Positions 14,372-50,913 of a stretch of DNA of 64,000 nt are shown here, piece after piece. Below the pieces are notes generated by a model. It saw nothing but the letters and a program-made list of their open reading frames with translations, made no database searches and was not told the DNA's origin. This stretch comes from Leisingera daeponensis DSM 23529 (lineage in GTDB: Bacteria > Pseudomonadota > Alphaproteobacteria > Rhodobacterales > Rhodobacteraceae). Every line of letters begins with the position of its first letter. Position 1 is the first letter of the stretch. Location: positions 146,549 to 210,548 of the forward strand of contig NZ_KI421502.1 of the NCBI RefSeq assembly GCF_000473145.1. The letters run 5' to 3'. Made by a program: the position numbers and the translations under genes.

Positions 14372-14386
14372 CTTTGTCCTCCCCTT

Positions 14387-14902: not shown

Positions 14903-14972
14903 CTAGGTCTCCTTACTCGTCTTGCTGTCACGGGGGCCGCGGCGGGGGCCGCCGCAGAAACGCCCCTGTCCG

Positions 14973-20899: not shown

Positions 20900-22420
20900 C
20901 TACTGGCAGCCGCCCGCCGCCCAGCTCTTCAGCGCCTGTTTCAGCGCCCCGCCAAACGGATGCTGCTTGCCCAAGGAACGCTGCATGTTGAGGCTCAGGT
21001 AAGTGTTTCCCTGCGTGCACAGCCGCTCCCGCGTCCATTGATGGCAGCTGCTGCAGGACTGGTCCTTCCAATAGCTTTCCGGCAGCCCTTCGACCGGCGG
21101 AAACGACGGCGACCGGGTCACCGCCTCGGCCAGCGTCAGGCCGGAGAGCGCCGCCGCATCGGTGTCCAGCGGGCTGGCATAGGTGATCGGCCCGGTTTCC
21201 GCCAGCGCCACCGCCGCAGGGGCGTCCTCAGCCGCGGCTGGCGGAGTGTCCGCGCCGGCCTGCGGGTCCTGGCCTGCCCCGGCGGCCAGCGCCGCAACCT
21301 CGGCGGCGGCCAACTCGGCAAACCGGCCCTCCGGGTAGGCCATCAGATAGGCCTCAAAGGCTGCCTTGCTGCCATCGCCCTGTGCCGCCTGGAACATCGC
21401 CGTTTCGGCATCCGCAGCCGCAACAGCGGGCGCAGGCTCTGCCGGGGCGGCCGGGGCGGCCGTAACCGCAGCGCCTGCGCCGCCGTGCAATTCCTCTTCC
21501 ATCAGGCTGGCCAGCAGCGCCCGCGCCTCATCTGCATATTTCCCGCTGCCGTAGCCGCGCAGGAACAGCATGATCTGCATCGCATCGCGCGACGCCTTCA
21601 CGGAGCGCCAGATCTGCGCCTCCTCGATCTCCGCGGCGCTCATCACCGCTTCCGGCTCTGCCGCGGCAAAGGTGAAGTCACTGACCAGCGAAGACGTGTC
21701 CCAGGGCGTCTGGCCGCCGCCGCTCTGCTCCAGCACTGCCCGGCGCACCTGTTTGAACACCTGCTCCACCGGCGCCCCGGGCACCACGATCTCACGCGCC
21801 AGCGCCTCGGTGAACGGGCTGTTCTCCCCCTCCCCGTCCAGTGCCACCTCCCCCGGCGCGGTAGCGTAGGCCAAAAAGGTCCCGGTCGGCGCCTTCATCT
21901 CCGCCAGGCCGCGTTCGTTCAGATCCGCCACCGCCTTAAACGGGTTGTTGCGGCAGGCATCCAGGATCACGATATTGGTGCGGTTGCGGGCCGAGGCCAT
22001 CTGCCGCAAGACCGACTGCGCCTCCACCGCCATCAGGTCCAGATCGGCGGCATCCGACAGCGCCACATCGACCGGCAAAAGATAGTTGCTGCCAAAGCTC
22101 TGCACCCCGTGGCCGGCATAGTAGAACAGGCCCGTCGCATCCTCCCCTGCCCCGCGCAGCCTGCGTCCGAACCGGGCAATCGCGCGCTTCATCTCAAGCT
22201 GCGGCGCATCCACCGCCAGGGTGACGTCAAAGCCCAGCCGCTCCAGCGTCTCAGCCATCAGCCGGGCATCACGCCCCGGGTTGTCCAGCGGCTGCACCGA
22301 CCCGTAGGCCGAATTGCCGATCACCAGCGCCAGCCGCTCCTCCGCCCAGGCGGCCCTGGCAAGGCCCAGCACCGCGGCGGCCAGAACTGCCAGCCGGATC
22401 CACATCCCGAAAATTCGCAC
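20900..22420 (-). CDS. Secreted caspase-like (peptidase C14) protein with C-terminal CxxCH
   Basis: The 506-residue protein has a signal peptide (about 1-26, ending ARAAWA) and then a caspase p20-like fold. The catalytic pair is visible: His104 in YYAGHGVQ and Cys156 in ILDACRNNP. After about residue 260 come Ala/Pro-rich helical and repeat-like parts. The last 60 residues contain CSSCH (456-460) plus Cys468 and Cys505; CxxCH is the covalent haem c attachment motif, but it could also form disulfides or bind zinc. It would act in the periplasm. It is convergent with the TonB-like gene and divergent from the YceI-OmpA gene. Family call firm, haem binding speculative. Confidence 0.88.
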   Translation of the reverse strand: MRIFGMWIRLAVLAAAVLGLARAAWAEERLALVIGNSAYGSVQPLDNPGRDARLMAETLERLGFDVTLAVDAPQLEMKRAIARFGRRLRGAGEDATGLFYYAGHGVQSFGSNYLLPVDVALSDAADLDLMAVEAQSVLRQMASARNRTNIVILDACRNNPFKAVADLNERGLAEMKAPTGTFLAYATAPGEVALDGEGENSPFTEALAREIVVPGAPVEQVFKQVRRAVLEQSGGGQTPWDTSSLVSDFTFAAAEPEAVMSAAEIEEAQIWRSVKASRDAMQIMLFLRGYGSGKYADEARALLASLMEEELHGGAGAAVTAAPAAPAEPAPAVAAADAETAMFQAAQGDGSKAAFEAYLMAYPEGRFAELAAAEVAALAAGAGQDPQAGADTPPAAAEDAPAAVALAETGPITYASPLDTDAAALSGLTLAEAVTRSPSFPPVEGLPESYWKDQSCSSCHQWTRERLCTQGNTYLSLNMQRSLGKQHPFGGALKQALKSWAAGGCQ

Positions 22421-24207: not shown

Positions 24208-25335
24208 TCAGGACGGGTCTTCCAGCGCCGCAAAGAAGGCTGCGATGGCGTCTTCCAGCTTGTGCCGGTCGATTTCCGAGAAGTCGCGCTCCATCGCCAT
24301 TTCGATCTTGCCGTCGCGCGCCTGACAGCGAACTGTCCCCGCGGGGACAGTGCAGCGCAGGGTGGTCTTGGCCACGCCGGCGCGCGGCGCAGCGGGAGTG
24401 CGGGGGGCGTTCTTGCGCTTGCCCTCGGCGAAGCTGCGCAGCACCTCCAGCTCTGCCTCTTCACTCTGCGGCTTCACCCGCGCCAGCGCGTCGCGCAGCA
24501 CCTGGGCGTTCATCGCATCGGCTTCCAGGCGTTTCTTCAAGTCCAGCCCCAGGGCCCGCGGGATCGCCTCCGGGTGTTTCAGCGCATCCCCCACGGCCTT
24601 CAGCACTTGGGCAAAATGGCGGATGTAGATCCGCTTCTGCCGGCCCGCAGAGGCGTAAAGGTCGTTCACCGCATCCTCGATGGTCTCCGCGCCGGTGCCG
24701 GTGTCTTCGGCATAGCGCAGCGCCAGCTGCGCCATTTCGGCGAAGGAGATGTCGCGGCGCACCAGGTTCTCATCCACCATCCGGCGGTAAAGGCTCTGCA
24801 GACTGTCGCCCTTGGCCACCAAACCTGCGGGGATATGGCCGTAGATTTCGTCCCCCGTTTCACTGAGCAGCTCCAGATAGGCCCGCATCCGGCGGTAGCC
24901 CTGGATCAGCTCATAGGTGCCGTCTTCGTTTTCCTCGACCCGGATCGGGTTGGACAGGCCAATGGATTTGATGGAGGCCTTCAGCTCATCCAGCTCCGGA
25001 TCGCGCCCTTCCTTGCGGTCGCGGACCAGCTTCTGCATGCCGATCCGGCCAATCGGAATCCGGTCGACCACCAGGCCCAGCTTCTTCAGCCGCACGAACT
25101 CATGCGCCAGCCGGTCGTTCTCAGCGCGGATCTTCATTTCCGCCTCGGCACGGGTGCGCAACGCATCGGCGTTCTCGGAGATCGCGGTGGCCATCGGCCC
25201 GCGGCGCGCTTCAGACGGTTTGCGCATCCGTTGGTCCGGCTTCTGGACGGCGGTCTCCGCGGGGGGCGTCTTTGGTTCGGAGGGGTCGTTTGGTTCAGTC
25301 GGGAAGTCGATGTCGAAGACTCTGCGTTTGCTCAT
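24208..25335 (-). CDS. parB: Plasmid partition protein ParB
   Basis: The 375-residue protein has the ParB/Spo0J N-terminal nuclease-like domain (DPELDELKASIKSIGLSNPIRV, then YELIQGYRRMRAYLEL), a central helix-turn-helix region (RRDISFAEMAQLALRYAEDTG) and a C-terminal dimerisation part. A basic/acidic N-terminal tail precedes them. It should bind the parS sites, spread, and stimulate ParA. Its ATG overlaps the parA stop as ATGA. One copy of the 16-base palindrome lies inside its own coding sequence near the 3' end (24334-24349), read as VPAGT. Confidence 0.95.
   Translation of the reverse strand: MSKRRVFDIDFPTEPNDPSEPKTPPAETAVQKPDQRMRKPSEARRGPMATAISENADALRTRAEAEMKIRAENDRLAHEFVRLKKLGLVVDRIPIGRIGMQKLVRDRKEGRDPELDELKASIKSIGLSNPIRVEENEDGTYELIQGYRRMRAYLELLSETGDEIYGHIPAGLVAKGDSLQSLYRRMVDENLVRRDISFAEMAQLALRYAEDTGTGAETIEDAVNDLYASAGRQKRIYIRHFAQVLKAVGDALKHPEAIPRALGLDLKKRLEADAMNAQVLRDALARVKPQSEEAELEVLRSFAEGKRKNAPRTPAAPRAGVAKTTLRCTVPAGTVRCQARDGKIEMAMERDFSEIDRHKLEDAIAAFFAALEDPS
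24334..24349. repeat. 16-base palindrome, inside parB
   Basis: Exact TGTCCCCGCGGGGACA, 148 bases beyond the start of the last copy of the main cluster. Confidence 0.85.
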
Positions 25336-26635
25336 GCCTCATCCTCCAGATTTTCCCAGGCTTCCAGCGCGTAGGCCTTGAATTCGTCATAGGCCTGATC
25401 AAACGACGCCCGCGCACGGCGCCAGGTTTCGCGTGTCATGTCCCGGTAATCGATTTCGTAGATCGAACTCAGGAAGCGGCCCGATTGCTCGACTGCGCGG
25501 GTCATCTCGATCGGGTGCTCGGTCATTCTACCCTCGAACACCTTCATAAATGCCGAACGCATCGCACGGTGCAAATCGTTACCGCTTTCGTAACGGGTGA
25601 GGAGGAAGCGGACGTCCTGGAAAACCTTCGGCAGAGCAAATGTCCCCGCGGGGACAACACCGTTAAACGCCGACAGATCCTCCAGCGCCTCAGAGAGCTG
25701 GCCGATGAAGGAGGTGGTGGAGTCATACTCCCAGTAGCCGGGGCCGGAGGGGATATAGAGCATGTCAGCGGCGAAGACCGCGTTCATCGACTGGTAGCCG
25801 ATGGCGGGCGGGCAGTCGAAGATCATCAGGTCGTAGTCCTCGGCCGGGAGCTGGTCGAGGTAGCGGGAGACCGCGGCGAAGAACGACCATTCCGGGTTCA
25901 AGTGGCGGTACTGGGCGGAGGCGAATTCCACGAAGGCCGCGTTGGCGCAGGACGGGATGATGTCGATGGTGGGCAGCTGGTCGGCTTGACGAAATCGCTG
26001 ACCCGCAGGTCCTGCAGCCCCATGCCGGTGATCGCGTCGGGGAGCTGGCGCTGGGGCAGGGCGGTGCCGGACTCGGCGCCTTGCGATACCGCGTTCATCC
26101 GTTCCGTCTCGCGCACCAGGTCGCGGGCCATGATGCCCCAGACGGTGTAGTCCTCGGTGACGTCGCTGAGGCCCATGGAGTGCGACAGGGTGGCCTGCGG
26201 GTCGAAGTCGACACACAGCACCCGGTAGCCGTCCAGCGCCGCGGCATGGGCGAAGTGCAGGGCAACGGTGGATTTGCCGGCGCCGCCCTTGAAGTTGGAG
26301 ATCGCCACCCGCAGCGCCCGTTTCCCCGCGGGGCGCTTGGGCAGCAGCGATTTGCGGTTGATCTTGATGCGGCGGCGCAGCTCGTTGATCTCGTCCAGCG
26401 AATACCAGCGCTGGCGGCCGTCCTCCTCGACATGGCCCTGGGGCAGCGAGGGGTCGGTGGCGAGCCGTCCCCGCAGGGTCGACTGGTTGACGCGGAAGAT
26501 CAGCTCCGCCACCTCCCAGGAGGAGAACCGGCGCAGGGTCTTTTCCAGTTCGGGGGAGAAGGTCTGCTGGCGGATCCAGCTTTGCATCTTGAGAGATTGG
26601 GCCTGCATCTTGGACAGGTCTTCGTGCGTAAACAT
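25332..26635 (-). pseudogene. parA: Plasmid partition ATPase ParA, frameshifted as read
   Basis: Two overlapping frames together make one ParA/RepA-type ATPase of about 434 residues. The first frame starts at the ATG at 26635 (Shine-Dalgarno AAGGAG) and encodes a helix-turn-helix-like N-terminus, the deviant Walker A FKGGAGKST and the switch VDFDPQATLSHSMG. Near 25970-25985 the frame goes wrong after SDFVKPTS; one missing G restores the reading to PTIDIIPSCANAAFVEF and on through DLMIFDCPPAIG to the end. This can be a sequencing error or a real mutation; an essential partition gene argues for the former unless another parA exists. A palindrome copy (25641-25656) lies in the second part, read as VPAGT. 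The stop overlaps parB. Confidence 0.88.
25641..25656. repeat. 16-base palindrome, inside parA
   Basis: Exact TGTCCCCGCGGGGACA within the ParA coding frame, again encoding VPAGT on the minus strand. Confidence 0.85.
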
Positions 26636-26767
26636 CGCTGCTCCTTAGCCTCACACGGTGTTGTTTTTTACAGCGCCCATTTCTTGCGGACGCTAATTCA
26701 GCCTCAATATCCATTTACGCCGAATTTGCAAAAAACGCAAAAGCTAATATGGTTGGAAAGAGCGTCC

Positions 26768-30722: not shown

Positions 30723-31025
30723 TTATTCCGACAGGAACGCCATCAGGTCCTGGCGGGCGTGCAGGATGCGAAGGATCTCGGGGCGGCCGTGTTCCAGCCG
30801 GTAGATCACCAGATGCGCGCCGGAGGGGTGGATACGGACCGGCGGGGTGAACTCTGCCCGTTCGCGGGCCATTTCCAGGAAGTCCGCCAGCAGGTCGAAC
30901 AGGGCAAACAGGCTGTCTGTATAGGCGTCTGCCTGCGCCGCGCCCCAGGTGTGCTGGCCATAGCGCCAGATGGCGGCAAGGTCGGCGCGGGCGGCGGGGC
31001 GGATCCGCCAGCGCGGCTCAGCCAT
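30723..31025 (-). CDS. parE: ParE-family toxin
   Basis: This 100-residue protein is a RelE/ParE-superfamily toxin: PRWRIRPAARADLAAIWRYG at the N-terminus, GAHLVIYRL in the middle and EILRILHARQDL at the end. ParE toxins poison DNA gyrase, though some relatives cut mRNA. It overlaps the upstream parD by 8 bases, the usual order for antitoxin before toxin, and probably helps keep the replicon. Confidence 0.93.
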   Translation of the reverse strand: MAEPRWRIRPAARADLAAIWRYGQHTWGAAQADAYTDSLFALFDLLADFLEMARERAEFTPPVRIHPSGAHLVIYRLEHGRPEILRILHARQDLMAFLSE

Positions 31026-31254
31026 TGCGGCGCATGGCAGCCTTGAAAGCTTCGGCGGTCAGCGCCTCGGACGGGCCGCTGGCGAGGCCTGCATCAATGG
31101 CGGTTTGCAGTTCGGCAATGGCGGCGGCGCGGGCCTGGTCGCGGCGGATCAGGTCGCGGACATAGTCGCTGGAGTTGGCATAGGTGCCGGTGCGGGCGCG
31201 TTCCTCGACCCAATCCTTCATCTGGTCCGGCAGGGAGACGTTCATGGTGGCCAT
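31018..31254 (-). CDS. parD: ParD-family antitoxin
   Basis: A 78-residue ribbon-helix-helix protein, MATMNVSLPDQMKDWVEERA being the typical ParD start, with the YANSSDYVRDLIRRDQ helix pair and a C-terminal toxin-binding tail. I placed the start at 31254, preceded by AAAGGAA; the frame extends 29 codons upstream without a match. It should bind its own promoter, where an inverted repeat lies. Confidence 0.93.
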   Translation of the reverse strand: MATMNVSLPDQMKDWVEERARTGTYANSSDYVRDLIRRDQARAAAIAELQTAIDAGLASGPSEALTAEAFKAAMRRNG

Positions 31255-31283
31255 GGGCGGGTTCCTTTCGCTGCCACAGGATA

Positions 31284-31298
31284 TGGCAATCTTTGCCA
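31284..31298. promoter_or_regulatory. Candidate ParD operator
   Basis: Inverted repeat TGGCAA-TCT-TTGCCA lies 30 bases upstream of parD, where its promoter should be. Autoregulation by ParD is usual in this family. Confidence 0.55.
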
Positions 31299-31335
31299 AA
31301 AGTGCAAGAGAGGAAGCGGGAAGGTTGCCCGCCTG

Positions 31336-31371
31336 ACGCAAAAAGCCCGCAGCTAGATGCTGCGGGCTTTT
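31336..31371 (-). terminator. Intrinsic terminator after the rhodanese-YidC-PEP fusion gene
   Basis: Stem AAAAGCCCGCAG / CTGCGGGCTTTT with a 7-base loop; on the minus strand it is followed by a T run (TTTTTGCG). It ends the large gene and insulates parDE. Confidence 0.85.
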
Positions 31372-31392: not shown

Positions 31393-34300
31393 TCAGGCCG
31401 AGACCACCTTGAGGCCTTTCTCTTCCAGCGGCTCAATGCTGCCGTCTTCGCTGACGGTCACCTTCTCGCCGTGGCTGAGGCTGTCGAGACCCTTGCATGC
31501 GACCAGCATCAGGACGTCCTTTTCGCGGGCAACGATGGCCATGTGGCTGAGCCAGCCGCCGACCTCGCTGAGCACAGCGCCAGAGCGCTGGACATAAGGA
31601 AGCCAGGCCGGGTTGACCATGCGGCAGACCAGAATGTCGCCGTCCTCGAAGTCTGCAAACGCAGCCGGGTCGATGCAGCTGTCGTCTTCCATCCAGAACA
31701 CCCGGGCGGTGGCGCTGCCGCTGCCCGCGACGCAGGTGCCGCCCATGGTGCCGCCGGCCGCCTTGGCCTGGGCGCCGAGCGACAGCAGTTCGCAGTCGCG
31801 CAGGGTGAGGGTGACGTCCGTGGGGGCGGATTTCTTGCGCAGCTCCTCCTTGGCGGCGCGGGCCTCTGCCAGGGCGCGCAGCTGCGCGGGTGCGGACCAG
31901 TTGCCGGACAGAACCTCGTCGAAGGTGAGGCTGAACACCAGATCCCCCAGCCCGCTGATCTGCCCCAGCGCCAACAGGGCGCGGCGCAGTTCGGCGACGA
32001 CGCGCAGGGCCTCGTGCTTGGCCTGCTCCTTGAGGTCCTGGTAGGCGATGGCGATGCCGATGGTATCGTCCAGCTCATCCGGCAGGTTGGCCGGAACCGG
32101 GACGGACCCGATCGGCTCCACCGTGTTGGTAAGCAGCGATTCCAGCAGCGCCGGCGCCTCTCTGTAGCGGGGCGAGGACAGCTCATAGTCGAAGATCGAA
32201 CGGTGCCCCATCAGCTGCGTGGCGCGGGCCTGGGCATCCCTTCCGGTGCAGGAGGCGAGCAGGCTGGAGGGCGCGTTGGGCAGGTCCGCGTGCATCAGGT
32301 GCGCGCGCAGGGCCGGATCGCCAGCCGCTGCCGTGCCGGCCTCGCCCATGGTGAAGCCTGCCAGGATGTTGATCTTCTCGGCCTCCAGATAGACCTCGCG
32401 GATGAACATGTCCTTGAGGGTGGAGATCGCCTCCAGCAGCTTGTCCTGGGGCAGGGCGGCGTAATCCACCGCCTGCCAGATCGCCAGCTTGTTCTTCAGC
32501 TCCGGCATCACCTCGCCGCGGAAGCGGGTGATCATCGGGTGCGCCTGCTTGCGCAGCTGCTTGGCCTTGGCGGCGGTGAGCTTGAGCGTCATGCCCTGTT
32601 TTAGCGCCACATCGACGTAGGTCTTGCCGAACAGGTTGACCAGATGGCCGTCGCGCCCTTCCGGCAGGCCATAGGGCACGCCCAGCTCGCGGCAGGCCAG
32701 GTCAACGCTGCCGCCCGGCGCCCACAGCTCGCTCATCAGCGAGAAGGAGAGCGGGGTGGGGCGGGGCAGGACCTCGGACATTTCGTCCTGTTCCAGAATG
32801 ATCTGGTCCGGGTCCGCACCGGCGTAGCGGTCCAGCAGATCGCGCCATTCGGCGAGGCGGGTCTGTTCCTGCTCGGTGCCCAGGGACAGCGTGGTGATGT
32901 CGCGGCTCTGGACGATCTGGAACTGGCCGTTTGCATAGGCCCATTCCACGTCCTGCGGGCAGCCGAAGGTCTCCTCGATCTGCTTTCCAAGGGCCAGCAG
33001 CGGCGCCATGTCCAGGGTCTGGTCCTGATCGGCATCCGCCGGCAGGCCGGTGTAGCGGCCAAAGCGCAAGGAGGTCGGGGTGACGCGGCCGGACACAAGA
33101 TCCTCGCCGCAGCCCTCGACCCATTCGATCATGGCCATGCCGGGGGCCATCGGGTCCTGGGTGAAGAGGACGCCGGCGTATTCGGCCTGCACCATTTCCT
33201 GCACCACGATGTTGCCCTGATCTGTGCTGTCGCCCTCGCCGGAGTAGCTGGCGGCACGTTCGGACGAGAAGCTGGTAACAACTTCGTCCAGCGCCGCGCG
33301 CATGGTGTCCGCGGTCACGTCGAGCACGGATTCAAAGACGCCTGCGAAGCTTTGATCGTGGCCGTCCTCGTTGCTGGCGGAGGAGCGCACGGCGACCGGC
33401 TTGCCGCCTGCAAGGGCAAAGACCCTGGCGGCAAAGGCGTCTTTTTTCGCATCGGACATTTCGCGGTAGTCGTGGATCGCATCGGAGCGCACGATCACGC
33501 CGCCGGGCACCGGCAGGCCGGCGTTGCGCAGGATCGACAGGCGCAGGGCCTTGTTGCCGGCGTGCTCCAGTTCTTCGGTGTAGCCCATCGGGATCACGCC
33601 GCGCGGCAGCTTGGCAAGGCGGCGCTTGTGGGCGCGCAGCGACACCGCTTCAGCCAGCGTGCGGTGCATGCCGGTGACATAGGCGCGCTGCACCAGCAGG
33701 AGCGTCAGGCTGAAGCAGAGATAGGCATTGGCGGCCGCGGTCAGGCTGAACACCATGGCAAAGAGCGCAGGCATGCCCAGCACCATCCACAGGAGTTTCT
33801 GGCGCTTGGTCTTGGCCACGGCCCAGAGCAGGTAGACGGCGGCAAGCGCACAGAACAGCACCGGCAGGATGAACAGTGGATCGGGCGCGCCGAGGTCCTC
33901 CATCCACAGGAACGGGGTTTGCAGCGAGGCGCTGGCCTCTTGTGCGGCGGAGACGCCCAGCATCATCACCGGCAGAAACAGAAGCGCGGTGAGGTTCTTC
34001 ATCGGGGTCAGGCCTTTTTCGGCGTAGAACGCCTGCACCGCGCGCGCCTTGCGCACCGGGTCATGGGCCAGTTTCGCCTTCAGCGCCTTCATCTCGTCCG
34101 CGGTTTCATTGGTGATGATCTGGTCGCGTTCGGATTTCAGCGCCACCGGAAGAACCAGAATGCGGGTCACGATGGACAGCGCCAGAAGGCCCAGCAGGAT
34201 ATGGCTGCGCTCATGCACCCACAGCAGCGCGGCGGCCAGCGCCGAGATCGCCTTGTCCCAGAGGCCGGTCTGCTGATCGGCCAGCCACGCCTGCACATGC

Positions 34301-35427
34301 GGCTTTGGCTTGGGTGCGACAAAATATTCCCAGGGCAGGGTGTAGCGGCCGCGGAAGTCGATGCCCTGCTGCGACAGCTCCAGCCCCAGCACCTGGCTCA
34401 TGAAGCAGCTGCGGCGGTCATAGCAGGCGGCGATGGTGGGTTTGTCCGGGTCCAGTTCCGCGATGCGCTCCATCAGGTCTGCGGTCGTCATCTTGCGGAT
34501 CGGGATGTTGACGGCGCCGGGCAGATGGCCGGTTTCAAAGTCGCCGGGATAGCGGGTGTCGACGATCTGCAAATCCTCGGTGGTCAGCAGGTTCGTGAAA
34601 TCATCGGTGCTGAGCAGCACGTCCTTGCCCGGATAGTCCGGAATCGCCCGCAGATCGGAGAGGGTTTTCACGTCCTTGTCGGAGAACGCGCGCCCCTCGA
34701 CGATCCATTTCTCGATGCCGCCGGCGATGAAGCTGCAGTCGATGCCCATCGCCGCCAGCTTGGCGCAGGTTTCCGAGCTGCGGTTGCCGTTGTGGCAGAA
34801 CAGCACGACCTTCTGGCCGGGCTTGACCGGCTGGCTCTGGACGAAATCCGGAAAGCGGATATGGGTCGCGCCGGGCAGGGTGCCCATGGCGTTCTCGCCG
34901 GTTTCGCGGATGTCGTAGAACAGGGTCGTGCCGTCTTCCAGCGCCGCCGCGGCCTCGGCGGTGCTCATCGCCAGCGGATGGTCCTCCTGCTTGGTGAAGC
35001 TGGTCTCTTTGAGCGCGGCGTCCTTGATGGTGGTGCCGTCAAACTGCGCCGGCCGGGTCAGGGTTGCCTGCAGTCTTGCCAGTTCCTTCTGCTCATGCGA
35101 GGAATACTGCCAATAGTTACCAGCCGCCAGCGCAATGGCCGCCAGAACGAGCACAGAAATCAGCTTGACCGGGTACCGCCGCGGAGTTCCGCCCGGTTTG
35201 GGGGTAAAACCAAGTTTTGCCGCAACGACAGCGCCGAGGCCGGAAACCATGGCAATTCCAACAGCCAGCACCTGCGACAGCGAAGAGACCGAGCCGATGA
35301 CCAGCTCCGGCGAGGGGATGGCCAGAGCCGCGACCGGGACTGCTGAAAAAAGTGCCGTCAGCACAGTGATTTGCACTGAGCGGTGGCGGGACCCTGAGGT
35401 TCTGTGGGGCAAGGTGGTATTCTTCAC
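31393..35427 (-). CDS. Fusion of two rhodanese domains, YidC-like membrane domain and PEP-synthase-like phosphotransfer module
   Basis: About 1,344 residues from a GTG start with an AGGAAA site (an ATG 33 bases upstream lacks one). Numbering is from the GTG. Membrane helices lie at about 20-70 and 88-104. Rhodanese domain 1 (about 150-250) has Cys211 in FCHNGNRS; rhodanese 2 (about 270-370) has Cys335 in ACYDRRS. Residues about 404-585 resemble YidC/Oxa1: IVTRILVLPVALKSERDQ, then PFLWMEDLGAPDPLFILPV and further helices. From about 629 comes a PEP-synthase-type ATP-grasp (NAGLPVPGGVIVRSDAI, VAVRSSASNEDG, VVQEMV), and near the end the swivelling His1295 in GGWLSHMAIVARE. The C-terminal TIM barrel of true PEP synthase is absent, as in rifampin phosphotransferases. 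Function unknown. Confidence 0.85.
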   Translation of the reverse strand: MKNTTLPHRTSGSRHRSVQITVLTALFSAVPVAALAIPSPELVIGSVSSLSQVLAVGIAMVSGLGAVVAAKLGFTPKPGGTPRRYPVKLISVLVLAAIALAAGNYWQYSSHEQKELARLQATLTRPAQFDGTTIKDAALKETSFTKQEDHPLAMSTAEAAAALEDGTTLFYDIRETGENAMGTLPGATHIRFPDFVQSQPVKPGQKVVLFCHNGNRSSETCAKLAAMGIDCSFIAGGIEKWIVEGRAFSDKDVKTLSDLRAIPDYPGKDVLLSTDDFTNLLTTEDLQIVDTRYPGDFETGHLPGAVNIPIRKMTTADLMERIAELDPDKPTIAACYDRRSCFMSQVLGLELSQQGIDFRGRYTLPWEYFVAPKPKPHVQAWLADQQTGLWDKAISALAAALLWVHERSHILLGLLALSIVTRILVLPVALKSERDQIITNETADEMKALKAKLAHDPVRKARAVQAFYAEKGLTPMKNLTALLFLPVMMLGVSAAQEASASLQTPFLWMEDLGAPDPLFILPVLFCALAAVYLLWAVAKTKRQKLLWMVLGMPALFAMVFSLTAAANAYLCFSLTLLLVQRAYVTGMHRTLAEAVSLRAHKRRLAKLPRGVIPMGYTEELEHAGNKALRLSILRNAGLPVPGGVIVRSDAIHDYREMSDAKKDAFAARVFALAGGKPVAVRSSASNEDGHDQSFAGVFESVLDVTADTMRAALDEVVTSFSSERAASYSGEGDSTDQGNIVVQEMVQAEYAGVLFTQDPMAPGMAMIEWVEGCGEDLVSGRVTPTSLRFGRYTGLPADADQDQTLDMAPLLALGKQIEETFGCPQDVEWAYANGQFQIVQSRDITTLSLGTEQEQTRLAEWRDLLDRYAGADPDQIILEQDEMSEVLPRPTPLSFSLMSELWAPGGSVDLACRELGVPYGLPEGRDGHLVNLFGKTYVDVALKQGMTLKLTAAKAKQLRKQAHPMITRFRGEVMPELKNKLAIWQAVDYAALPQDKLLEAISTLKDMFIREVYLEAEKINILAGFTMGEAGTAAAGDPALRAHLMHADLPNAPSSLLASCTGRDAQARATQLMGHRSIFDYELSSPRYREAPALLESLLTNTVEPIGSVPVPANLPDELDDTIGIAIAYQDLKEQAKHEALRVVAELRRALLALGQISGLGDLVFSLTFDEVLSGNWSAPAQLRALAEARAAKEELRKKSAPTDVTLTLRDCELLSLGAQAKAAGGTMGGTCVAGSGSATARVFWMEDDSCIDPAAFADFEDGDILVCRMVNPAWLPYVQRSGAVLSEVGGWLSHMAIVAREKDVLMLVACKGLDSLSHGEKVTVSEDGSIEPLEEKGLKVVSA

Positions 35428-35660
35428 GGCGTTTCCTGTTGAGCCAGTTCTATCGGGCATTCTGAATTGTGGCGAATTTGCCTAAAAGATTACGAAAATC
35501 TTACTGAACCGTTAATATAGAGGACGGAGAATAAAAGAACCGCAAAATTTTTCCAAGAATTGGAGGCGCGTTAACATTGTATTCTTAACCATGTGGCATG
35601 TAACGAGGGTGGAAAGGCCCGCCCGCTATGCCAGCCGATGTCAGTCAGGAGGCTAAAGCC
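35428..35660. promoter_or_regulatory. Divergent promoter region, fusion gene and PhnD-like gene
   Basis: AT-rich gap of about 230 bases, with AAATTT- and TTAATA-like stretches near 35500-35585, between two divergent genes. It should hold promoters for both. No specific operator is evident. Confidence 0.45.
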
Positions 35661-36557
35661 GTGAAGTTGTTTGCGTGGATCATTGGTATCATTAAGCTTT
35701 TCCTGGGCTCGCTGCGGGCAGCGGCACCGGCTGCTGTGCTGTCCGCGTGCCTTGCGCTGTGGTTTCCGGGGCCGGGCCAGGCTGGGATTGAACTGGTCTT
35801 CGGAACCTATGCAGCGGATAAACCTACTGCAACGGTTAAAAAGTACCAGCCGTTTCTCTCCTTCCTCGCCGGACGCATGAGCGAAGAGCTGGGCGAGCCG
35901 GTGTCGATCCGGCTGAAGATCGCCAAGGAGTACGGCGAGGGGATCCGCCAGCTGGCCAGCGGCGAGGTGGATTTCGCCCGTTTCGGCCCGGCGTCTTACG
36001 TGCATGTGATGCAGGAAAACCCGGGCATCCGGATTGTCGCGATGGAATCCAAGAACGGCGGCAAGCGGTTCAAGGGGGTGATCGTGGTCCACAAGGACAG
36101 CAGCGTTCAGGCGATGGAGGATCTGGCCGGTCTCAGTTTTGCCTTCGGGGATGAGCTGTCGACCATCGGCCGCTATCTGGCTCAGGAATACCTGCTGAAC
36201 GCCGGTATCAGCAGCGCCGATCTTTATGAATTTGCCTATCTCGGGCGTCATGACCTGGTCGGGGAGGCGGTGGGCGCAGGCCGGTATTCCGCAGGCGCCC
36301 TGAAGGAGAGCACCTATAAGAAGCTGGTCGCCAAGGGGGTGCCGATCCGGGTTCTGGCCTCGTTCGACAATGTTACCAAGCCCTGGCTGGCGTCGTCGCA
36401 GATGCCGGAAAACGTGCTGGAGGCCATGCGCAAGGTCATGCTGTCCTCGGAGAACGAGGAGATCGTGCGCCGGATTTCGAAGAACGGGTTCCTGCTGGGG
36501 GACGATCAGGATTATGACATCATCCGCCGGGCAATGGAGCGCAGCCTGGCATTTTAA
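35661..36557 (+). CDS. PhnD-like periplasmic substrate-binding protein
   Basis: A protein of about 298 residues of the phosphate/phosphonate-binding PhnD type. A membrane/signal segment (about 10-45) precedes ELVFGTYAADKPTATVKKYQPFL. The fold motifs GEVDFARFGPASYV, AFGDELSTIGRYLAQEYLLNAG and SSQMPENVLEAMRKVM follow. I prefer the GTG at 35661, which has AGGAGG eight bases before it; an ATG at 35628 is possible. No ABC permease or ATPase is adjacent. Instead a hybrid kinase follows 18 bases later, so this protein probably serves as its ligand sensor. Confidence 0.85.
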   Translation: MKLFAWIIGIIKLFLGSLRAAAPAAVLSACLALWFPGPGQAGIELVFGTYAADKPTATVKKYQPFLSFLAGRMSEELGEPVSIRLKIAKEYGEGIRQLASGEVDFARFGPASYVHVMQENPGIRIVAMESKNGGKRFKGVIVVHKDSSVQAMEDLAGLSFAFGDELSTIGRYLAQEYLLNAGISSADLYEFAYLGRHDLVGEAVGAGRYSAGALKESTYKKLVAKGVPIRVLASFDNVTKPWLASSQMPENVLEAMRKVMLSSENEEIVRRISKNGFLLGDDQDYDIIRRAMERSLAF

Positions 36558-36575: not shown

Positions 36576-38860
<2,285 letters not shown>

Positions 38861-38861
<1 letters not shown>

Positions 38862-38913: not shown

Positions 38914-39720
38914 TCAGCCGCGGCGGCGGTGCAGCAGCAGCCCGGTCAGGCTGGAGGCGGCAAACAGCGCCGCGGCCAGGCAGACAATGCTGGGTCCGGC
39001 CGGGGTATCCAGCGCAAAGGCCAGCTGCAAACCGCCGGTGGCCGACAGCATTCCCAGCAGCGCGGCAATGGCGGCCATCCGCTCCGGCGTGGCGGCAAAG
39101 GGGCGGGCCGCGGCAGCGGGGATCAGCAGCATTGCCGCGATCAGCAGCACGCCCACCACCTTGATCGCCACGGCAACCACCAGCGCCAGCGCAATGGTCA
39201 GCACCATCTGCTCGCGACGCGGATCAATGCCGGCGGCATGGGCCAGGTCGGGGTTCAGCGTTGCGGTCAGCAGGGCGGACCAGCGCCACCACAGCAGCCC
39301 CAGCACCAGCGCCGCGCCGCCCCAGATCACCGCCAGATCGGCGCGGCCCACGGCGAGGATGTCGCCGAACAGATAGGCCATCAGGTCGATCCGCACCCCC
39401 TGCAGGAAAGAAACGGCCACCAAGCCGAAGGCGAGCGAGGAATGCGCCAGCACGCCCAGCAGCGTGTCCATCGCATAGCCGCGCCCGGCCAGCGCCGACA
39501 CGGTGGTGGCCATGGCCAGCGCCGTAGCCAGGACGCCCGCAAAGACGGAGACGTCAAAGCTGAGCGCCAGCGCCACCCCCAGGATCGACGCATGGGCGGT
39601 GGCATCGCCGAAATAGGCCATCCGGCGCCAGACCACGAAACAGCCCAGGGGCGCGGCGGCCAGCGCCACGCCGATGCCGGCCAGCGCGGCGCGGATCAGG
39701 AAATCGTCGAGAAAGGTCAT
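38914..39720 (-). CDS. znuB: Zinc ABC transporter permease ZnuB
   Basis: A 268-residue, multi-helix ABC-3 family permease with FVVWRRMAYFGDATAHASILG and later membrane helices, followed by FSL-free hydrophobic segments typical of ZnuB. It moves Zn2+ across the inner membrane using ZnuC. Its start overlaps the znuC stop by four bases. Confidence 0.95.
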   Translation of the reverse strand: MTFLDDFLIRAALAGIGVALAAAPLGCFVVWRRMAYFGDATAHASILGVALALSFDVSVFAGVLATALAMATTVSALAGRGYAMDTLLGVLAHSSLAFGLVAVSFLQGVRIDLMAYLFGDILAVGRADLAVIWGGAALVLGLLWWRWSALLTATLNPDLAHAAGIDPRREQMVLTIALALVVAVAIKVVGVLLIAAMLLIPAAAARPFAATPERMAAIAALLGMLSATGGLQLAFALDTPAGPSIVCLAAALFAASSLTGLLLHRRRG

Positions 39721-40484
39721 TCTGCGGCCTCGTGAGAGTGCTCGTGCCCGTTCCCGTGGGTGTGGGCGCAGTCGTGGTCGTGGCTGTGGTTGTGTTCATG
39801 CCGGTAGAGCGCCAGCGCGCCCTGGGTGCCGGTGCCGAACAGCGCCCGGTATTCCGGGGCGGAGGCGACATGCTCCGGCGCGCCCTCGCAGCAGACATGG
39901 CCGTTCAGGCAGATCACCCGGTCGGAGGCCGCCATCACAACATGCAGCTCGTGGCTGACCATCAGCACCGCGCAGCCCAGCTCCTGGCGGACCTTCTCGA
40001 TGCGCTGATAAAAGGCGGCGGAGCCGGGCTGATCGAGGCCTTGGGTGGCCTCGTCCAGGATCAGCAGTTGCGGATTGCACAGAAGCGCGCGGGCCAGCAG
40101 CACCCGCTGGAACTGGCCGCCGGAGAGGCCCGACATCTGCCGCGCCGCCAGATCGCCGGCCCCGGCCTGCTCCAGCGCCTCGGCGGCTCGGGCGTCAGAC
40201 ACCCGCTGCGGCAGGCTGAGGAAGCGGCGCACCGTCAGCGGCAGGGTGGGGTCGATGTGCAGTTTCTGCGGCACATAGCCGATGCGCAGCCCCGGCGCCC
40301 GGGTGACAGTGCCGCGCGCAGGTTTTTGCGCGCCGATCACGCTGCGCAGCAGGGTGGACTTGCCGGAACCGTTGGGGCCGACCACGGTGACGATTTCGCC
40401 CGGTTCGATGGTCAGGCTGACGCCGGACAGGACCGTATTGCCGCCGTGCCGGACCGACAGGTTGTTCAGGGCGATCAGGCTCAT
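39717..40484 (-). CDS. znuC: Zinc ABC transporter ATP-binding protein ZnuC
   Basis: A 255-residue ABC ATPase with Walker A GPNGSGKST, signature LSGGQFQRV and Walker B LLILDEATQGLD. The C-terminal 35 residues are His-rich (HEHNHSHDHDCAHTHG), a common extension in ZnuC proteins that can bind zinc. The ATG at 40484 overlaps the zur stop (ATGA); an upstream start inside zur is unlikely. Confidence 0.95.
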   Translation of the reverse strand: MSLIALNNLSVRHGGNTVLSGVSLTIEPGEIVTVVGPNGSGKSTLLRSVIGAQKPARGTVTRAPGLRIGYVPQKLHIDPTLPLTVRRFLSLPQRVSDARAAEALEQAGAGDLAARQMSGLSGGQFQRVLLARALLCNPQLLILDEATQGLDQPGSAAFYQRIEKVRQELGCAVLMVSHELHVVMAASDRVICLNGHVCCEGAPEHVASAPEYRALFGTGTQGALALYRHEHNHSHDHDCAHTHGNGHEHSHEAAE

Positions 40485-40963
40485 GCGGCGGCGGCCTTCT
40501 GGCATTTGGGGCATAGCCCCTCAGCCTCGATCACCGCGCGTTCGATCACGAAACCGGCGTCGCGGGCGGCCTGGCCCAGCTGGCCCTGTGTGGGTTCGCG
40601 CTGTGCCTCCGCCACGGCGTCGCAGGCGCGGCAGATCAGGAAAACCGGAGCGTGGGTCTCGCCCGGATGGGAGCAGGCGATGAAGGCGTTGAGCCGCTCG
40701 ATCTTGTGGGCGAAGCCGTTTTTCACCAGGAAATCCAAGGCGCGGTAGGCCACCGGCGGCTGCGAGCCGAGGCCCTCTTCGCGCAGGCGGTCGAGAATTT
40801 CATAGGCCCCCAGCGCGCGGTGCTCTTGCAGCAGGATTTCCAGCACCCGGCGGCGCACGGGGGTGAATTGCAGCCCCTCTGCCCGGCAGTGGGCGTCCAC
40901 TGCCGCGATGCAGTCCTGAATGCAGCTGCTGTGGTCGTGCGGCTCAAAACCGATGGAGTCCAT
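40481..40963 (-). CDS. zur: Zinc uptake regulator Zur (Fur family)
   Basis: The 160-residue protein has the Fur winged-helix (QFTPVRRRVLEILLQEHRALGAYEI, shown in part) and Cys pairs FLICRACD and GLCPKCQK for the structural zinc site. Linked to znuCB and divergent from znuA, it is Zur rather than Fur. With zinc bound it should repress both transcripts from the shared gap. Confidence 0.94.
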   Translation of the reverse strand: MDSIGFEPHDHSSCIQDCIAAVDAHCRAEGLQFTPVRRRVLEILLQEHRALGAYEILDRLREEGLGSQPPVAYRALDFLVKNGFAHKIERLNAFIACSHPGETHAPVFLICRACDAVAEAQREPTQGQLGQAARDAGFVIERAVIEAEGLCPKCQKAAAA

Positions 40964-41001
40964 TTGACGGGTCCTTTGAGAGGCGGGGTGATTTGCCTCT
41001 T

Positions 41002-41050
41002 GATATGTTATGTTATGACGTTTATCAACCGCGTGATGTTATAAGATTAC
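41002..41050. promoter_or_regulatory. Two candidate Zur boxes between zur and znuA
   Basis: GATATGTTATGTTATGAC (41002-41019) and GTGATGTTATAAGATTAC (41033-41050) both contain the ATGTTAT core of proteobacterial Zur sites. They are 31 bases apart, three helical turns. The second abuts the znuA start. Confidence 0.65.
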
Positions 41051-42076
41051 ATGAGGCTCAAAATGCGGACTTCTAGCGTGTGGAAAAGCGGTGCGGCGGC
41101 GGCGGCCTTGCTGGCCGGGGCAGGCGGGGCCTGGGCCGAGGTGCCGCGGGTGGCGGCGGATATCACCCCTGTGCACGGGCTGGTGGCGCGGGTGATGCAG
41201 GGCCTGGGCGCGCCTGCGCTTGTGGTGCCGCCGGGGGCGTCGCCGCATGGCTATGCGATGCGCCCGTCCGAGGCGCAGGCGCTGGACCAGGCGGATCTGG
41301 TGTTCTGGATGGGCGAGGCGCTGACCCCCTGGCTGGAAGGCCCGCTGGAGGAACTGGCGGGCGATGCGCACCGGGTGGAGCTGTTGGCGGCGGAAGGCAC
41401 CGAAGTGCTGGCATTCCGCGAAGGGGCCCGGTTTGAGGCCCATGGGCATGAGGAGGACCATGGCGATCATGATGATCACGCAGGCCATGAGGATCATGCA
41501 GACCACGACAGCCGCGAGGGCGATTACGATCACGATCACGCGGAGTCGCACGGGCACAGTCATGCGGGCGCCGATCCGCACGCCTGGCTGCTGCCGGCCA
41601 ATGCACAGGCCTGGCTGGACCTGATCGCAGCAGAGCTGGCAGAGCACGACCCGGACAATGCCGCAGCCTACAAAGCCAATGCAGAGGCCGGCAAGCAGGA
41701 GATTGCGGACGCTGCCGCCAGTATCTCGGCGTCGCTGGAACCGTTCCGGACCAAGCAGTTCATCGTCTTCCACGACGCCTATCAGTATTTCGAGCGCGGT
41801 TTTGGCCTGAACGCGGCCGGTGCGATTTCACTGGGGGATGCGGTCAAGCCGAGCCCGGCGCGGATTGCCGAAGTGCGCGGCGTTGTGGCGGATCTCAAGG
41901 TGTCCTGCGTGTTCTCGGAGCCGCAGTTTAATCCGGGCGTGGTCGCCACCGTGCTGGACGGAACCGGAGCAGGCACCGCGCTGCTGGATCCGCTGGGCGC
42001 CAAACTGGAACCGGGGCCGCAGTTTTATCCAGCGCTTCTGCGGGATATCGGCAGTGCGATTGCCGGTTGCGAATGA
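41051..42076 (+). CDS. znuA: Zinc ABC transporter substrate-binding protein ZnuA
   Basis: The 341-residue protein has a signal peptide (to about GGAWA), the ZnuA core with VHGLVARVMQGLG and PPGASPHGYAMRPSEAQAL, and a long His/Asp-rich loop (about 132-175) typical of zinc-specific members. The binding His residues fall in PHGYAMR, ADPHAW and FHDAYQYF. It captures Zn2+ in the periplasm for ZnuBC. It is divergent from zur-znuC-znuB. Confidence 0.95.
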   Translation: MRLKMRTSSVWKSGAAAAALLAGAGGAWAEVPRVAADITPVHGLVARVMQGLGAPALVVPPGASPHGYAMRPSEAQALDQADLVFWMGEALTPWLEGPLEELAGDAHRVELLAAEGTEVLAFREGARFEAHGHEEDHGDHDDHAGHEDHADHDSREGDYDHDHAESHGHSHAGADPHAWLLPANAQAWLDLIAAELAEHDPDNAAAYKANAEAGKQEIADAAASISASLEPFRTKQFIVFHDAYQYFERGFGLNAAGAISLGDAVKPSPARIAEVRGVVADLKVSCVFSEPQFNPGVVATVLDGTGAGTALLDPLGAKLEPGPQFYPALLRDIGSAIAGCE

Positions 42077-46932: not shown

Positions 46933-48141
46933 ATGGCCCAATTCCGCCGCGCCGCCCGTCTCGACCCGATCGAGGTCTCGGAGATCCTGACCATCGGCGC
47001 CAAGGCGGCCGAGATGAAGCGCCAGGGCGCGCCGGTGATCATCCTCGGCGCCGGGGAGCCGGATTTCGACACGCCGGACCACATCAAGGAGGCCGCCGCT
47101 GCCGCGATGCGGGCGGGGGAGACCAAATACACCCCGCTTGGCGGCACGCTGGCGCTGCGGCAGGCGATCCAGGCAAAGTTCAAGCGCGACAACGGGCTGG
47201 ATTATGCGCTGGACGAGATCGTCGCGGGCACCGGCGCCAAGGAAATCCTGTTCGATGCTTTCATGGCCAGCCTCAACCCGGGCGATGAGGTGATCGTGCC
47301 GACGCCCTATTGGACCTCCTATTCCGACATCATCCGCATTGCTGGGGGTGTGCCGGTACTGGTGCCTTGCGGGGATGATACCGGCTTCAGGCTGACCGCG
47401 GAGAAGCTGGAGGCGGCGATCACCCCGCGCAGCCGCTGGCTGCTGCTGAATTCGCCGTCGAACCCGGCAGGCGCAGGGTACAGCGCCGCAGATTACCGGC
47501 CGCTGCTGGAGGTGCTGCTGCGGCACCCGGATGTCTGGCTGATGGCCGATGACATGTATGAGCACATCACCTATGGCAGCTTTGAATTCGCAACACCTGC
47601 GCAGGTGGAGCCGCGGCTGAAGGACCGGGTGCTGACCGTCAACGGCGTCTCTAAAGCCTATGCGATGACCGGCTGGCGGCTGGGCTATGCCGGCGGGCCG
47701 AAGGCGCTGATTGATGCGATGAAGGTGGTGCAGTCGCAATCGACCTCGCATCCCTCGTCCATTTCGCAGGCGGCGGCGGTGGCGGCGCTGACCGGCCCGC
47801 AGGAGGTGCTGGCCGAGCGGCGGGAGAGTTTCCAGGCGCGGCGCGATCTGGTGGTGGAGGCGCTGAATGGCATGGAGGGGATCGCCTGCCCGGTGCCGGA
47901 GGGGGCGTTTTACACCTTCGCCAATTGCGCTGGCGTGCTGGGCAAGCGGACGCCCGGGGGCGCGGTGCTGGAAACCGATGCGGATTTCTGCGCCTATCTG
48001 CTGGACCAGCACCATGTGGCGGTGGTGCCGGGCCGCGCCTTTGGCATCTCGCCCTATTTCCGGATTTCCTATGCCACCTCCGAGGCAGAGCTGAGGGAGG
48101 CGCTGAGCCGGATCGGCGGGGCGGTGGCGGCGCTCAGCTAG
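46933..48141 (+). CDS. Class I aminotransferase (aspartate aminotransferase-like)
   Basis: The 402-residue PLP enzyme has the fold type I hallmarks KYTPLGGTLALRQAIQAKF, NSPSNPAGAGYSA, DDMYEHITYG and the PLP-Lys motif NGVSKAYAMTGWRLGYAGG. It is close to AspC-type aminotransferases. Start at 46933 follows AAGGAG. Substrate is not clear from sequence; the lysine-catabolic neighbours make aminoadipate or a related amino acid possible. Confidence 0.9.
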   Translation: MAQFRRAARLDPIEVSEILTIGAKAAEMKRQGAPVIILGAGEPDFDTPDHIKEAAAAAMRAGETKYTPLGGTLALRQAIQAKFKRDNGLDYALDEIVAGTGAKEILFDAFMASLNPGDEVIVPTPYWTSYSDIIRIAGGVPVLVPCGDDTGFRLTAEKLEAAITPRSRWLLLNSPSNPAGAGYSAADYRPLLEVLLRHPDVWLMADDMYEHITYGSFEFATPAQVEPRLKDRVLTVNGVSKAYAMTGWRLGYAGGPKALIDAMKVVQSQSTSHPSSISQAAAVAALTGPQEVLAERRESFQARRDLVVEALNGMEGIACPVPEGAFYTFANCAGVLGKRTPGGAVLETDADFCAYLLDQHHVAVVPGRAFGISPYFRISYATSEAELREALSRIGGAVAALS

Positions 48142-50678: not shown

Positions 50679-50913
50679 CCGCAACTCCTTCGAGGGCGGC
50701 GGGTAAGATAATTTACTAATTTTGTCAATTATTGATGCGGGCCGGCTGCGCGACGCTCTCTCACGCCCTCGTGCGGACCCTATCTGAAGTGTGTAATCAA
50801 CATTATGGTAATAATGGATCGAGCCGGGACAGCAGTGGTTGGCATCGCCCGGCTGAACACATGCGGACACCCCCGCCGGCAGCCCGGCGGGGGTGCGCTG
50901 GCGGCGCAGGGGG
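50679..50913. promoter_or_regulatory. Promoter of the ligase fusion and hairpin after degP
   Basis: The AT-rich part near 50700-50735 should hold the ligase promoter. An operator-like CATTAT-GGTA-ATAATG lies at 50801-50816. A GC-rich hairpin (ACCCCCGCCGG / CCGGCGGGGGT, 50869-50894) follows the degP stop on the minus strand and may end that transcript. Confidence 0.5.

Follow-up and report, generated by a model that had tools for sequence, protein, structure and literature searches.

What might a single protein do that carries two rhodanese domains, a YidC/Oxa1-type membrane core and a phosphotransferase half in one chain? Such a protein, here called the fusion, is encoded in a stretch of 64,000 nucleotides from Leisingera daeponensis DSM 23529 (contig NZ_KI421502.1, positions 146,549–210,548), hereafter the window, in which it lies divergently to the genes of a periplasmic binding protein and a transmembrane hybrid histidine kinase. 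The reading that we tentatively favour, at a probability of roughly 0.4, is that the fusion is a membrane enzyme of the rifampin phosphotransferase (RPH) type which phosphorylates a small molecule, and that the sensing predicted for the binding protein and its receptor is directed at this molecule in its substrate or product form.

Conservation of the fusion

An open reading frame (ORF) call on the window gives the gene as one uninterrupted frame whose exact start codon is uncertain:

31393..35460, minus strand: whole fusion gene, 1355 amino acids (aa), with the AIPSP motif at residues 47–51

The original prediction placed the end of the gene at 35427, which is an internal GTG lying 11 codons (33 bases) downstream of the ATG; the frame itself reaches 35460. 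Annotated starts differ, one close plasmid beginning about 70 residues later and a Phaeobacter inhibens record starting upstream. The upstream start is more likely because a protein beginning at the later one would lack the AIPSP motif, invariant in 51 aligned fusion sequences, as well as a signal-peptide-like stretch.

The presence of two rhodanese domains, a YidC-like region, an ATP-grasp domain and a phospho-histidine domain in one chain was confirmed by Pfam, far above chance. PPDK_N (7e-35), two rhodanese stretches (2.7e-23), PEP-utilizers (3.5e-14) and 60KD_IMP/YidC (7.3e-15; 55.8 bits against a cut-off of 35) all scored above their cut-offs. In 27 aligned relatives PPDK_N, rhodanese and 60KD_IMP occurred throughout and PEP-utilizers in 26. 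A whole-protein search of 5.8 billion proteins, in which 7992 candidates were scored and 463 had E ≤1e-10, returned all four families together in 119 of the best 120 of the 463 homologues; with the C-terminal half as query 1077 proteins were returned, and all four families occurred in 111 of the best 120. More than a hundred relatives thus keep the join. Among the matches listed for the C-terminal half is a second group at 38–41% identity, of which the three rows with an organism name are Hyphomicrobiales, Rhizobiales and Rhodoplanes.

For comparison of loci, genome contigs were scanned for two exact rhodanese-loop peptides; 85 relatives were found and 80 kept, which together with the window make 81 loci. 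The 80 relatives are mostly Rhodobacterales, joined by Hyphomicrobiales bins and one Ramlibacter-labelled bin (L066), and the most distant one noted is a gammaproteobacterial bin (L083; 34% identity). Residue counts below refer to 73 full-length relatives from these loci and to 171 proteins of at least 1250 aa among 260 database proteins. Among sampled genomes the spread is patchy: with the window's own genome included, 5 of the 198 family genomes and 3 of the 398 from the phylum hold the fusion. In the class sample 2 of 385 genomes hold a full-length fusion, three more matches covering the ATP-grasp domain only, and in the order of locus L072 it is found in 2 of 249 genomes, those of L072 and L056. 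Plasmid records with one place covering at least 80% of the query number 81, and the best 40 of these are all Leisingera or Phaeobacter; no phage record had a place covering 80% of the protein. The window belongs to contig 4 of a five-contig, 4.64-Mb genome that contains one copy of the fusion and a separate YidC match.

Could the fusion be an artefact, that is, a frameshift, a misassembly or a chance joining of separate genes? The assembly may contain errors, because a nearby ParA frame of the window seems to be broken. Against this stand the recurrence of the same fusion in independent assemblies at 34–97% identity and in the homologues counted above, and the retention of key residues in the 73 relatives and the 171 proteins. 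We rejected the artefact, which we regard as hardly credible, and a check for a frameshift or misassembly joining separate genes found none. A search for stand-alone halves (78 proteins, E dropping from 6e-98 to 2.5e-12) gave no convincing natural split form among six proteins inspected, because the three short ones (P0123, P0154, P0215) end in seemingly out-of-frame sequence. The fusion architecture is real and conserved, and as far as the open-licence PMC literature shows it is undescribed, though a description elsewhere is possible.

Some database entries call for caution. A contig labelled Nocardioides marinus (L060) carries an 81% identical fusion among Leisingera/Phaeobacter-like neighbours and probably stems from a contaminated or mislabelled assembly; two proteins named Nymphon striatum (P0115, P0176) are likely bacterial contamination.

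An RPH-type phosphotransferase half

The C-terminal half comprises three domains:

32887..33570, minus strand: ATP-grasp domain, residues ~631–858, with K637, R692, S711, E839, Q851 and R853
31741..32853, minus strand: RPH-type substrate domain, residues ~870–1240 (boundaries approximate), with second-site residues K1144, E1145 and K1148
31453..31650, minus strand: swivelling phospho-histidine domain, residues 1271–1336, with H1306

A profile of 51 sequences matched Listeria RPH (PDB 5FBS) in the ATP-grasp domain and again from profile position 441 to 737, which corresponds to RPH 546–865, the second half of the rifampin-binding domain through the C-terminal histidine domain. Excerpts of PMC4844700 describe the domain order of RPH as ATP-grasp, substrate domain and C-terminal phospho-histidine domain, list Lys22, Arg117 and Thr136 (first site) and Arg666 and Glu667 (second site) as critical, and name His825 as the phosphate carrier. 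The C-terminal half of the fusion has this order, without a barrel. RPH K22, R117, T136, R666, E667 and H825 align with K637, R692, S711, K1144, E1145 and H1306, respectively, so the essential residues all have a counterpart, two of them conservatively changed. In the 73 relatives K637, R692 and K1144 are found without exception, S711 is Ser in 70 and Thr in 3, E1145 is Glu in 72 and Gln in 1, and H1306 occurs in 71, the other two being gaps. The 171 database proteins all have K637, R692, K1144 and E1145; S711 is Ser in 169 and Thr in 2, and H1306 is present in 170 with 1 gap.

The predicted phosphotransferase is therefore well supported at the residue level, as the original prediction of a phosphoryl-transfer enzyme had it from the ATP and histidine sites. 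That prediction also noted the lack of a PEP-synthase barrel (PEP, phosphoenolpyruvate). The barrel is indeed absent, the protein ending about 20 residues after the histidine domain, yet it was not simply lost, because the C-terminal half is of the RPH type and has a different kind of substrate domain. A PEP synthase with a lost barrel was rejected on this ground; the PEP synthase alignment shown covers the ATP-grasp and histidine domains only. By analogy with RPH chemistry the reaction would be ATP + alcohol + water → phosphate ester + AMP + inorganic phosphate (Pi).

The likeness has its limits. The cut-off of the curated RPH family NF041857 is not reached (128.2 against 999 bits), and those of PigC and RedH are likewise far off, so that the fusion is a relative rather than a member of these functional groups. 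This bears on the idea that the protein, like RPH, inactivates a drug or toxin by phosphorylating a natural antibiotic that enters through the membrane, the binding protein and its receptor inducing the fusion. RPH domain order and catalytic residues agree with such a role, as do the location of the genes on plasmids in Leisingera and Phaeobacter and the name rifampicin phosphotransferase that some sources give to homologues. We nevertheless consider it distinctly unlikely in view of the distance to the RPH cut-off and of partner proteins that belong to oxyanion-binding families.

A binding protein and a receptor usually accompany the fusion

Upstream of the fusion, on the opposite strand, lie the genes of a putative sensor pair:

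35628..36557, plus strand: PhnD/PtxB-like periplasmic binding protein (Pfam, loci comparison, structure-relative search)
36576..38861, plus strand: transmembrane hybrid histidine kinase with two receiver domains

Across the 81 loci the binding protein is of the PhnD type in 61 and of the PstS type in 9, with neither in the stretch examined in 11, and a receptor gene adjoins the binding protein on the same strand in 68. Five combinations of type, side and strand occur: PhnD-type genes lie upstream on the opposite strand (54), downstream on the opposite strand (6) or upstream on the same strand (1), and PstS-type genes downstream on the same strand (7) or upstream on the opposite strand (2). The PhnD-type protein and a transmembrane kinase stand together in 60 of 61 loci, the sequence of the last (L055) breaking off there. 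All 60 aligned kinases have the phospho-acceptor His and the second receiver Asp, and 58 have the first receiver Asp. A whole-genome search covered six of the 11 unlinked loci, the remaining five being cut short or located where a contig ends; five of the six genomes have the binding protein elsewhere (54–64% identity) with the kinase adjoining. In the family sample (198 genomes; E 1e-100 and 1e-50) both fusion and binding protein occur in 5, the binding protein only in 1, the fusion only in 0 and neither in 192. Linkage in several arrangements and co-occurrence thus bear out the suggested link of the fusion to the PhnD-like protein and the hybrid kinase.

The two kinds of binding protein, which are unrelated, go with different receptors. 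All five receptors scanned of type I (with PhnD) are hybrid kinases; of seven scanned of type II (with PstS) six have PAS-GGDEF-EAL and one an MCP signalling domain, with HAMP in five of the seven. On a quick tree of 52 fusions, made by a short search in which L083 forms a long branch and from whose change count rows without a known partner were left out, the partner type changed at least twice; L056 (PhnD) and L059 (PstS) are sisters with a support of 97 in the Shimodaira–Hasegawa-like approximate likelihood-ratio test (SH-aLRT). Binding protein and receptor switch together between types while the fusion stays. Because the pair is swapped as a unit, outputs differ and the fusion is constant, the common link is probably the sensed molecule, which the fusion would make, use or move.

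Known signalling and transport contexts were looked for around the pair. No DNA-binding output domain was found in the Pfam-scanned chain of the hybrid kinase, no ABC transporter gene was identified beside the PhnD-like binding protein, and no response regulator was recognised among the recurrent neighbours identified, which do not include every cluster. G508, the genome of L058, has the pair on another contig, and there (L099) the fusion is closely followed by a receiver-domain match on the opposite strand. The PADLOC anti-phage models matched the fusion and the binding protein with 0 families and the hybrid kinase with three weak hits, all at its C-terminal receiver end; a known defence system was rejected as the fusion has no PADLOC match. 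Loci L118–L121 represent a broader family with a PhnD-like binding protein and a hybrid kinase but no fusion; a single frame of L120 matches the binding domain twice. In the Ramlibacter-labelled bin the fusion is followed (14033–16918 of L066) by genes of an MFS transporter, a low-molecular-weight phosphatase-like protein and a TctC-type binding protein, which perhaps represent a third kind of partner.

Likely ligand of the binding protein

The nearest solved relatives of the PhnD-type partners are phosphite/phosphonate-binding proteins and those of the PstS-type partners phosphate-binding proteins. In PtxB, according to excerpts of PMC5700983, an S-T-S..H motif holds the phosphite oxygens and a cap tyrosine meets the P-H group; the assignment of the PDB chain to PtxB was deduced from residue numbers. 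The corresponding oxyanion motif, S178, T179 and H208, is kept in all 60 readable of 61 aligned binding proteins (1 gap), its third position being Ile in 59 and Val in 1. R182 and R207 are likewise kept in 60/60, and the cap position is Lys (K251) throughout. This pattern suggests as ligand a tetrahedral oxyanion that bears an additional negative or polar group.

Arsenite, which AioX binds via a Cys, was rejected, as only 11 of 61 binding proteins have a Cys beyond residue 40. In L119, a locus with the pair but without the fusion, the next gene encodes a SulP-type sulfate permease, a weak hint towards sulfur oxyanions.

Membrane core and topology

The membrane part of the fusion is encoded as follows:

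35107..35376, minus strand: N-terminal hydrophobic segments, residues ~29–118 (hydropathy and charge profile of 73 relatives; alignments)
33676..34194, minus strand: YidC/Oxa1 core, residues 423–595 (Pfam, profile alignment), with R433 in 171/171

At the N-terminus a signal-peptide-like stretch that ends before AIPSPEL is followed by two predicted transmembrane helices. A profile of the core (24 sequences, residues 405–605) matched residues 342–536 of E. coli YidC (4UTQ) at E 1e-14 as well as other bacterial YidC chains and human OXA1L, the organisms of these structures being partly presumed, and gave no other match below E 0.4. A conserved positive residue in the groove is a feature of YidC/Oxa1 proteins. 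R433 in VTRILVLP, which is Arg in all 73 relatives as in the database proteins, is aligned with a residue counted as R366 of E. coli YidC, which we take to be the groove arginine, and PFLWMEDLGAPDPLFILP falls within the matched core. Both YidC landmarks had thus been named correctly, and by profile and by 60KD_IMP score the middle region is YidC-like in sequence.

Charges of the predicted loops, given as mean Lys+Arg against Asp+Glu over the 73 relatives, obey the positive-inside rule. Inside are the N-terminal tail (2.3 vs 0.1), the loops 78–98 (4.4 vs 0.1), 439–487 (10.0 vs 6.5) and 550–558 (2.9 vs 0) and the C-terminal tail (6.5 vs 0.9); outside are 47–56 (0 vs 1.0), 510–533 (0.5 vs 2.2) and 573–580 (0 vs 0.1), and the two that border the rhodanese domains, also outside, are close to neutral (2.0 vs 1.4 and 1.2 vs 0.9). 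The rhodanese domains are accordingly predicted to be periplasmic, the core to span the membrane and the phosphotransferase to be cytoplasmic. In E. coli YidC a large extracytoplasmic module, P1, precedes the core, and the rhodanese domains are predicted to occupy its place.

A YidC core invites the view, taken in the original prediction, that the protein inserts or assembles a membrane protein which its phosphotransferase then modifies. The match to E. coli YidC and the invariant groove arginine fit this view. But the genome has a separate YidC match, the fusion stays below the cut-off of the YidC subfamily profile TIGR03592 (56.6 against 84.3 bits), and the C-terminal tail of the core serves as a linker that joins it to the phosphotransferase. 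Among the called ORFs nearby, all of at least 90 aa, no candidate for a substrate gene recurs. RPH, moreover, acts on a small molecule in the account excerpted from PMC4844700. Insertion or modification of a membrane partner is thus unsupported, and we regard a phosphorylation-coupled insertase as improbable; on its sequence, the fusion is filed as a membrane-bound variant of RPH-type dikinases and not as an insertase.

Rhodanese domains and conserved cysteines

Two rhodanese domains lie between the N-terminal helices and the core:

34702..34962, minus strand: rhodanese domain 1, residues 167–253, loop CHNGNR, C222 in 170/171; predicted periplasmic
34330..34617, minus strand: rhodanese domain 2, residues ~282–377, loop CYDRRSC, C346 and C352 in 171/171; predicted periplasmic

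The canonical active-site loop of rhodaneses is Cys-x4-Arg. The loop of domain 1 (C222-HNGN-R227) fits it in 73/73 relatives, R227 being present in all 171 database proteins. The loop of domain 2 (C346-YDRRS-C352) departs from it: of the 171 proteins, 151 have Ser and 20 have Gly at position +5, and Arg is found at +3 in 168 and at +4 in 167. C232 and C242 are each Cys in 71/73 and 158/171, both being absent from L065 and L083. Together with C222, C346 and C352 these are the only cysteines conserved above 90% (at least 71/73 and 158/171), and all five are in the rhodanese region; in the membrane and cytoplasmic half no Cys is conserved above 65/73 or 118/171.

This distribution bears on two further explanations. 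In the first, persulfide formed on a rhodanese would pass through the core and join the phosphoryl group to give a thiophosphate or a thio-activated product. The canonical loop with its conserved C222 and R227 fits such a relay, and so would ATP-to-AMP chemistry, as in selenophosphate synthetase. However, the conserved cysteines are confined to the part predicted to lie across the membrane from the phosphotransferase, which argues against persulfide being relayed to that half and leaves the proposed coupling of sulfane sulfur to phosphoryl transfer unsupported. We consider a sulfur relay very improbable; any sulfur or thiol chemistry that does occur seems limited to the periplasmic part.

In the second, the sulfur or thiol state, read by the periplasmic cysteines, would switch the phosphotransferase in the cytoplasm, and the product of this enzyme would act on signalling, with the binding protein and its receptor as a parallel input. 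The five conserved cysteines, all on the predicted periplasmic side, would suit a sensor; both of the 73 relatives without C232 are also without C242, C346 and C352 share one loop, and the fusion co-occurs steadily with the sensor pair. On the other side, nothing shows redox cycling, and receptor outputs vary (kinase, GGDEF-EAL, MCP), which makes one downstream signalling protein an unlikely common target. Such a sensor-effector seems to us rather doubtful.

Proposed function

We return to the membrane phosphotransferase whose substrate or product is sensed by the pair. ATP would phosphorylate H1306 with release of AMP and Pi as in RPH, and the phospho-histidine domain would swing to the substrate domain and hand the phosphoryl group to a hydroxyl of the substrate, which might be bound at, or drawn from, the membrane core. 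On the periplasmic side the rhodanese domains may select or gate, perhaps by thiol state. Binding protein and receptor would report the level of substrate or product, and each lineage would wire that report to its own output.

Several findings weigh against this proposal. Genome G477 of the family sample has the pair without the fusion, and binding-protein profile matches in the phylum sample (7/398) include three genomes with the fusion and four without; in those four a relative of 39–43% identity adjoins a kinase and the fusion is absent. Conversely, L066 has the fusion with neither partner found, only weaker PhnD relatives being present, the best of which (32%) sits just before an ABC-type ATPase frame. 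The pair is thus broader than the fusion, and the fusion is seldom without the pair. The Fisher p of 2.5e-9 for co-occurrence in the family overstates independence because the sampled genomes are related and include the window's own, and the mirror-tree correlation of 0.93 (r, 56 loci) is without a control. As the loci were selected by their rhodanese loops, loop conservation among them is partly a product of selection, for which the 171-protein set is the check. At the residue level, the position of RPH R666 is Lys in 73/73 and 171/171, and that of the PtxB cap tyrosine is K251 in 60/60 readable binding proteins, which makes phosphite itself an unlikely ligand.

A bolder variant takes the whole as a self-contained signalling system. 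As a membrane synthase or group translocator, the fusion would use RPH chemistry to produce a phosphorylated small-molecule signal. The pair would be the detector dedicated to this signal, exchanged whole between lineages (PhnD-type with a kinase, PstS-type with cyclic di-GMP or chemotaxis output) while the synthase is kept. We think this unlikely.

If the phosphotransferase proposal is true, YidC-type cores can serve small-molecule enzymes besides protein insertion, and RPH-type enzymes have a membrane-bound branch. The sensor pair would then be a handle for finding the natural substrate, since its ligand can be screened directly, and an orphan enzyme family would become testable. Current database labels (PEP/pyruvate-binding, PEP-utilizing, rifampicin phosphotransferase, YidC insertase) each hide most of the protein.

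Regulatory DNA and other genes of the window

Two non-coding features flank the fusion gene:

35461..35627, no strand: divergent intergenic region between fusion and binding protein, with one promoter-like site at 35604–35576 (minus strand)
31341..31371, no strand: terminator-like hairpin of 13 pairs, with A and T tracts, directly behind the stop codon of the fusion

Neither exceeds chance by much, if at all: the promoter-like site is one found against 0.6 expected, and three terminator-like hairpins occur in the region against 3.1 expected. No 9-mer that might mark a shared operator occurred in more than four of the distant loci compared (74 upstream regions), and no structured RNA was found in the window at Rfam gathering scores.

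Ten neighbour proteins scanned in other lineages suggest no pathway: acyl-CoA and fatty-acid enzymes, a glycosyltransferase, FixG, a heavy-metal ATPase, a hydrolase, a glycine dehydrogenase, a RACo-type protein, a GDP-mannose-type enzyme and one protein without a match. A metabolic operon around the three genes was rejected on this account. Zinc uptake genes (38914–42076; ABC-3 permease, ATPase and ZnuA, with a Fur-type repressor as annotated in relatives) adjoin the three genes in the window and are taken as local synteny because they stand beside them in many Rhodobacterales and not in distant lineages. On the other side a ParDE-type toxin-antitoxin (30723–31341; ParE above, ParD below cut-off) adjoins the fusion, and the toxin cluster occurs in 8 loci. 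After the gammaproteobacterial genes of L083, a protein at 14297–15349 gives a sub-threshold phytase-like match (E 9.6e-6; 26.1 against 27.6 bits).

Further away in the window, a ParA-type partition gene appears split over the overlapping frames 25898–26635 and 25332–26714, whereas in the annotation of a close Leisingera plasmid there is one AAA ATPase of 1305 bp; either the frame is interrupted or the sequence is in error. Type VI secretion genes encode a ClpB-type AAA protein (5300–8023), TssF (9044–11008) and the VipB sheath (12875–14371). A caspase-domain protein is encoded at 20900–22420, and on a related plasmid a caspase-family gene lies near ExbD, MotA/TolQ/ExbB and DUF4384 genes. The gene at 48138–50870 joins an AMP-binding enzyme domain and an acyltransferase domain in one chain, and that at 3088–3942 encodes an ion-channel protein (Ion_trans, E 4e-39).

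Comparison with known systems

PEP synthase and pyruvate phosphate dikinase share ATP-grasp and phospho-histidine domains with the fusion, in which, however, the histidine domain is C-terminal and no barrel follows. RPH (PDB 5FBS) has the same order of ATP-grasp, substrate and C-terminal phospho-histidine domains, and its essential residues have counterparts in the fusion, two conservatively changed; from the end of the ATP-grasp match to the C-terminal end the fusion is 57 positions shorter (profile 246–737 against RPH 317–865), adds a YidC core and two rhodanese domains, and occurs with a sensor pair. The prodigiosin ligases PigC and RedH resemble it by profile matches only. Like YidC/Oxa1 insertases, the fusion has a core with a groove arginine and a large extracytoplasmic module before it, but two rhodanese domains stand in the place of P1, the tail runs into a phosphotransferase and the score falls under the subfamily cut-off. 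Tandem rhodaneses such as PDB 6MXV also have two rhodanese domains in a row; in the fusion the second loop is CYDRRSC and the domains are membrane-bound within a larger protein.

The sensor pair, for its part, has counterparts in AioX/AioS and ArrX-type sensors, where a PhnD-family binding protein likewise adjoins a transmembrane kinase; here no DNA-binding regulator was recognised beside the pair, and the pair is tied to the fusion. With PtxB, as excerpted from PMC5700983, the PhnD-type partner shares the ST-x..H oxyanion motif, whereas the cap tyrosine of PtxB is replaced by a lysine in the partner.

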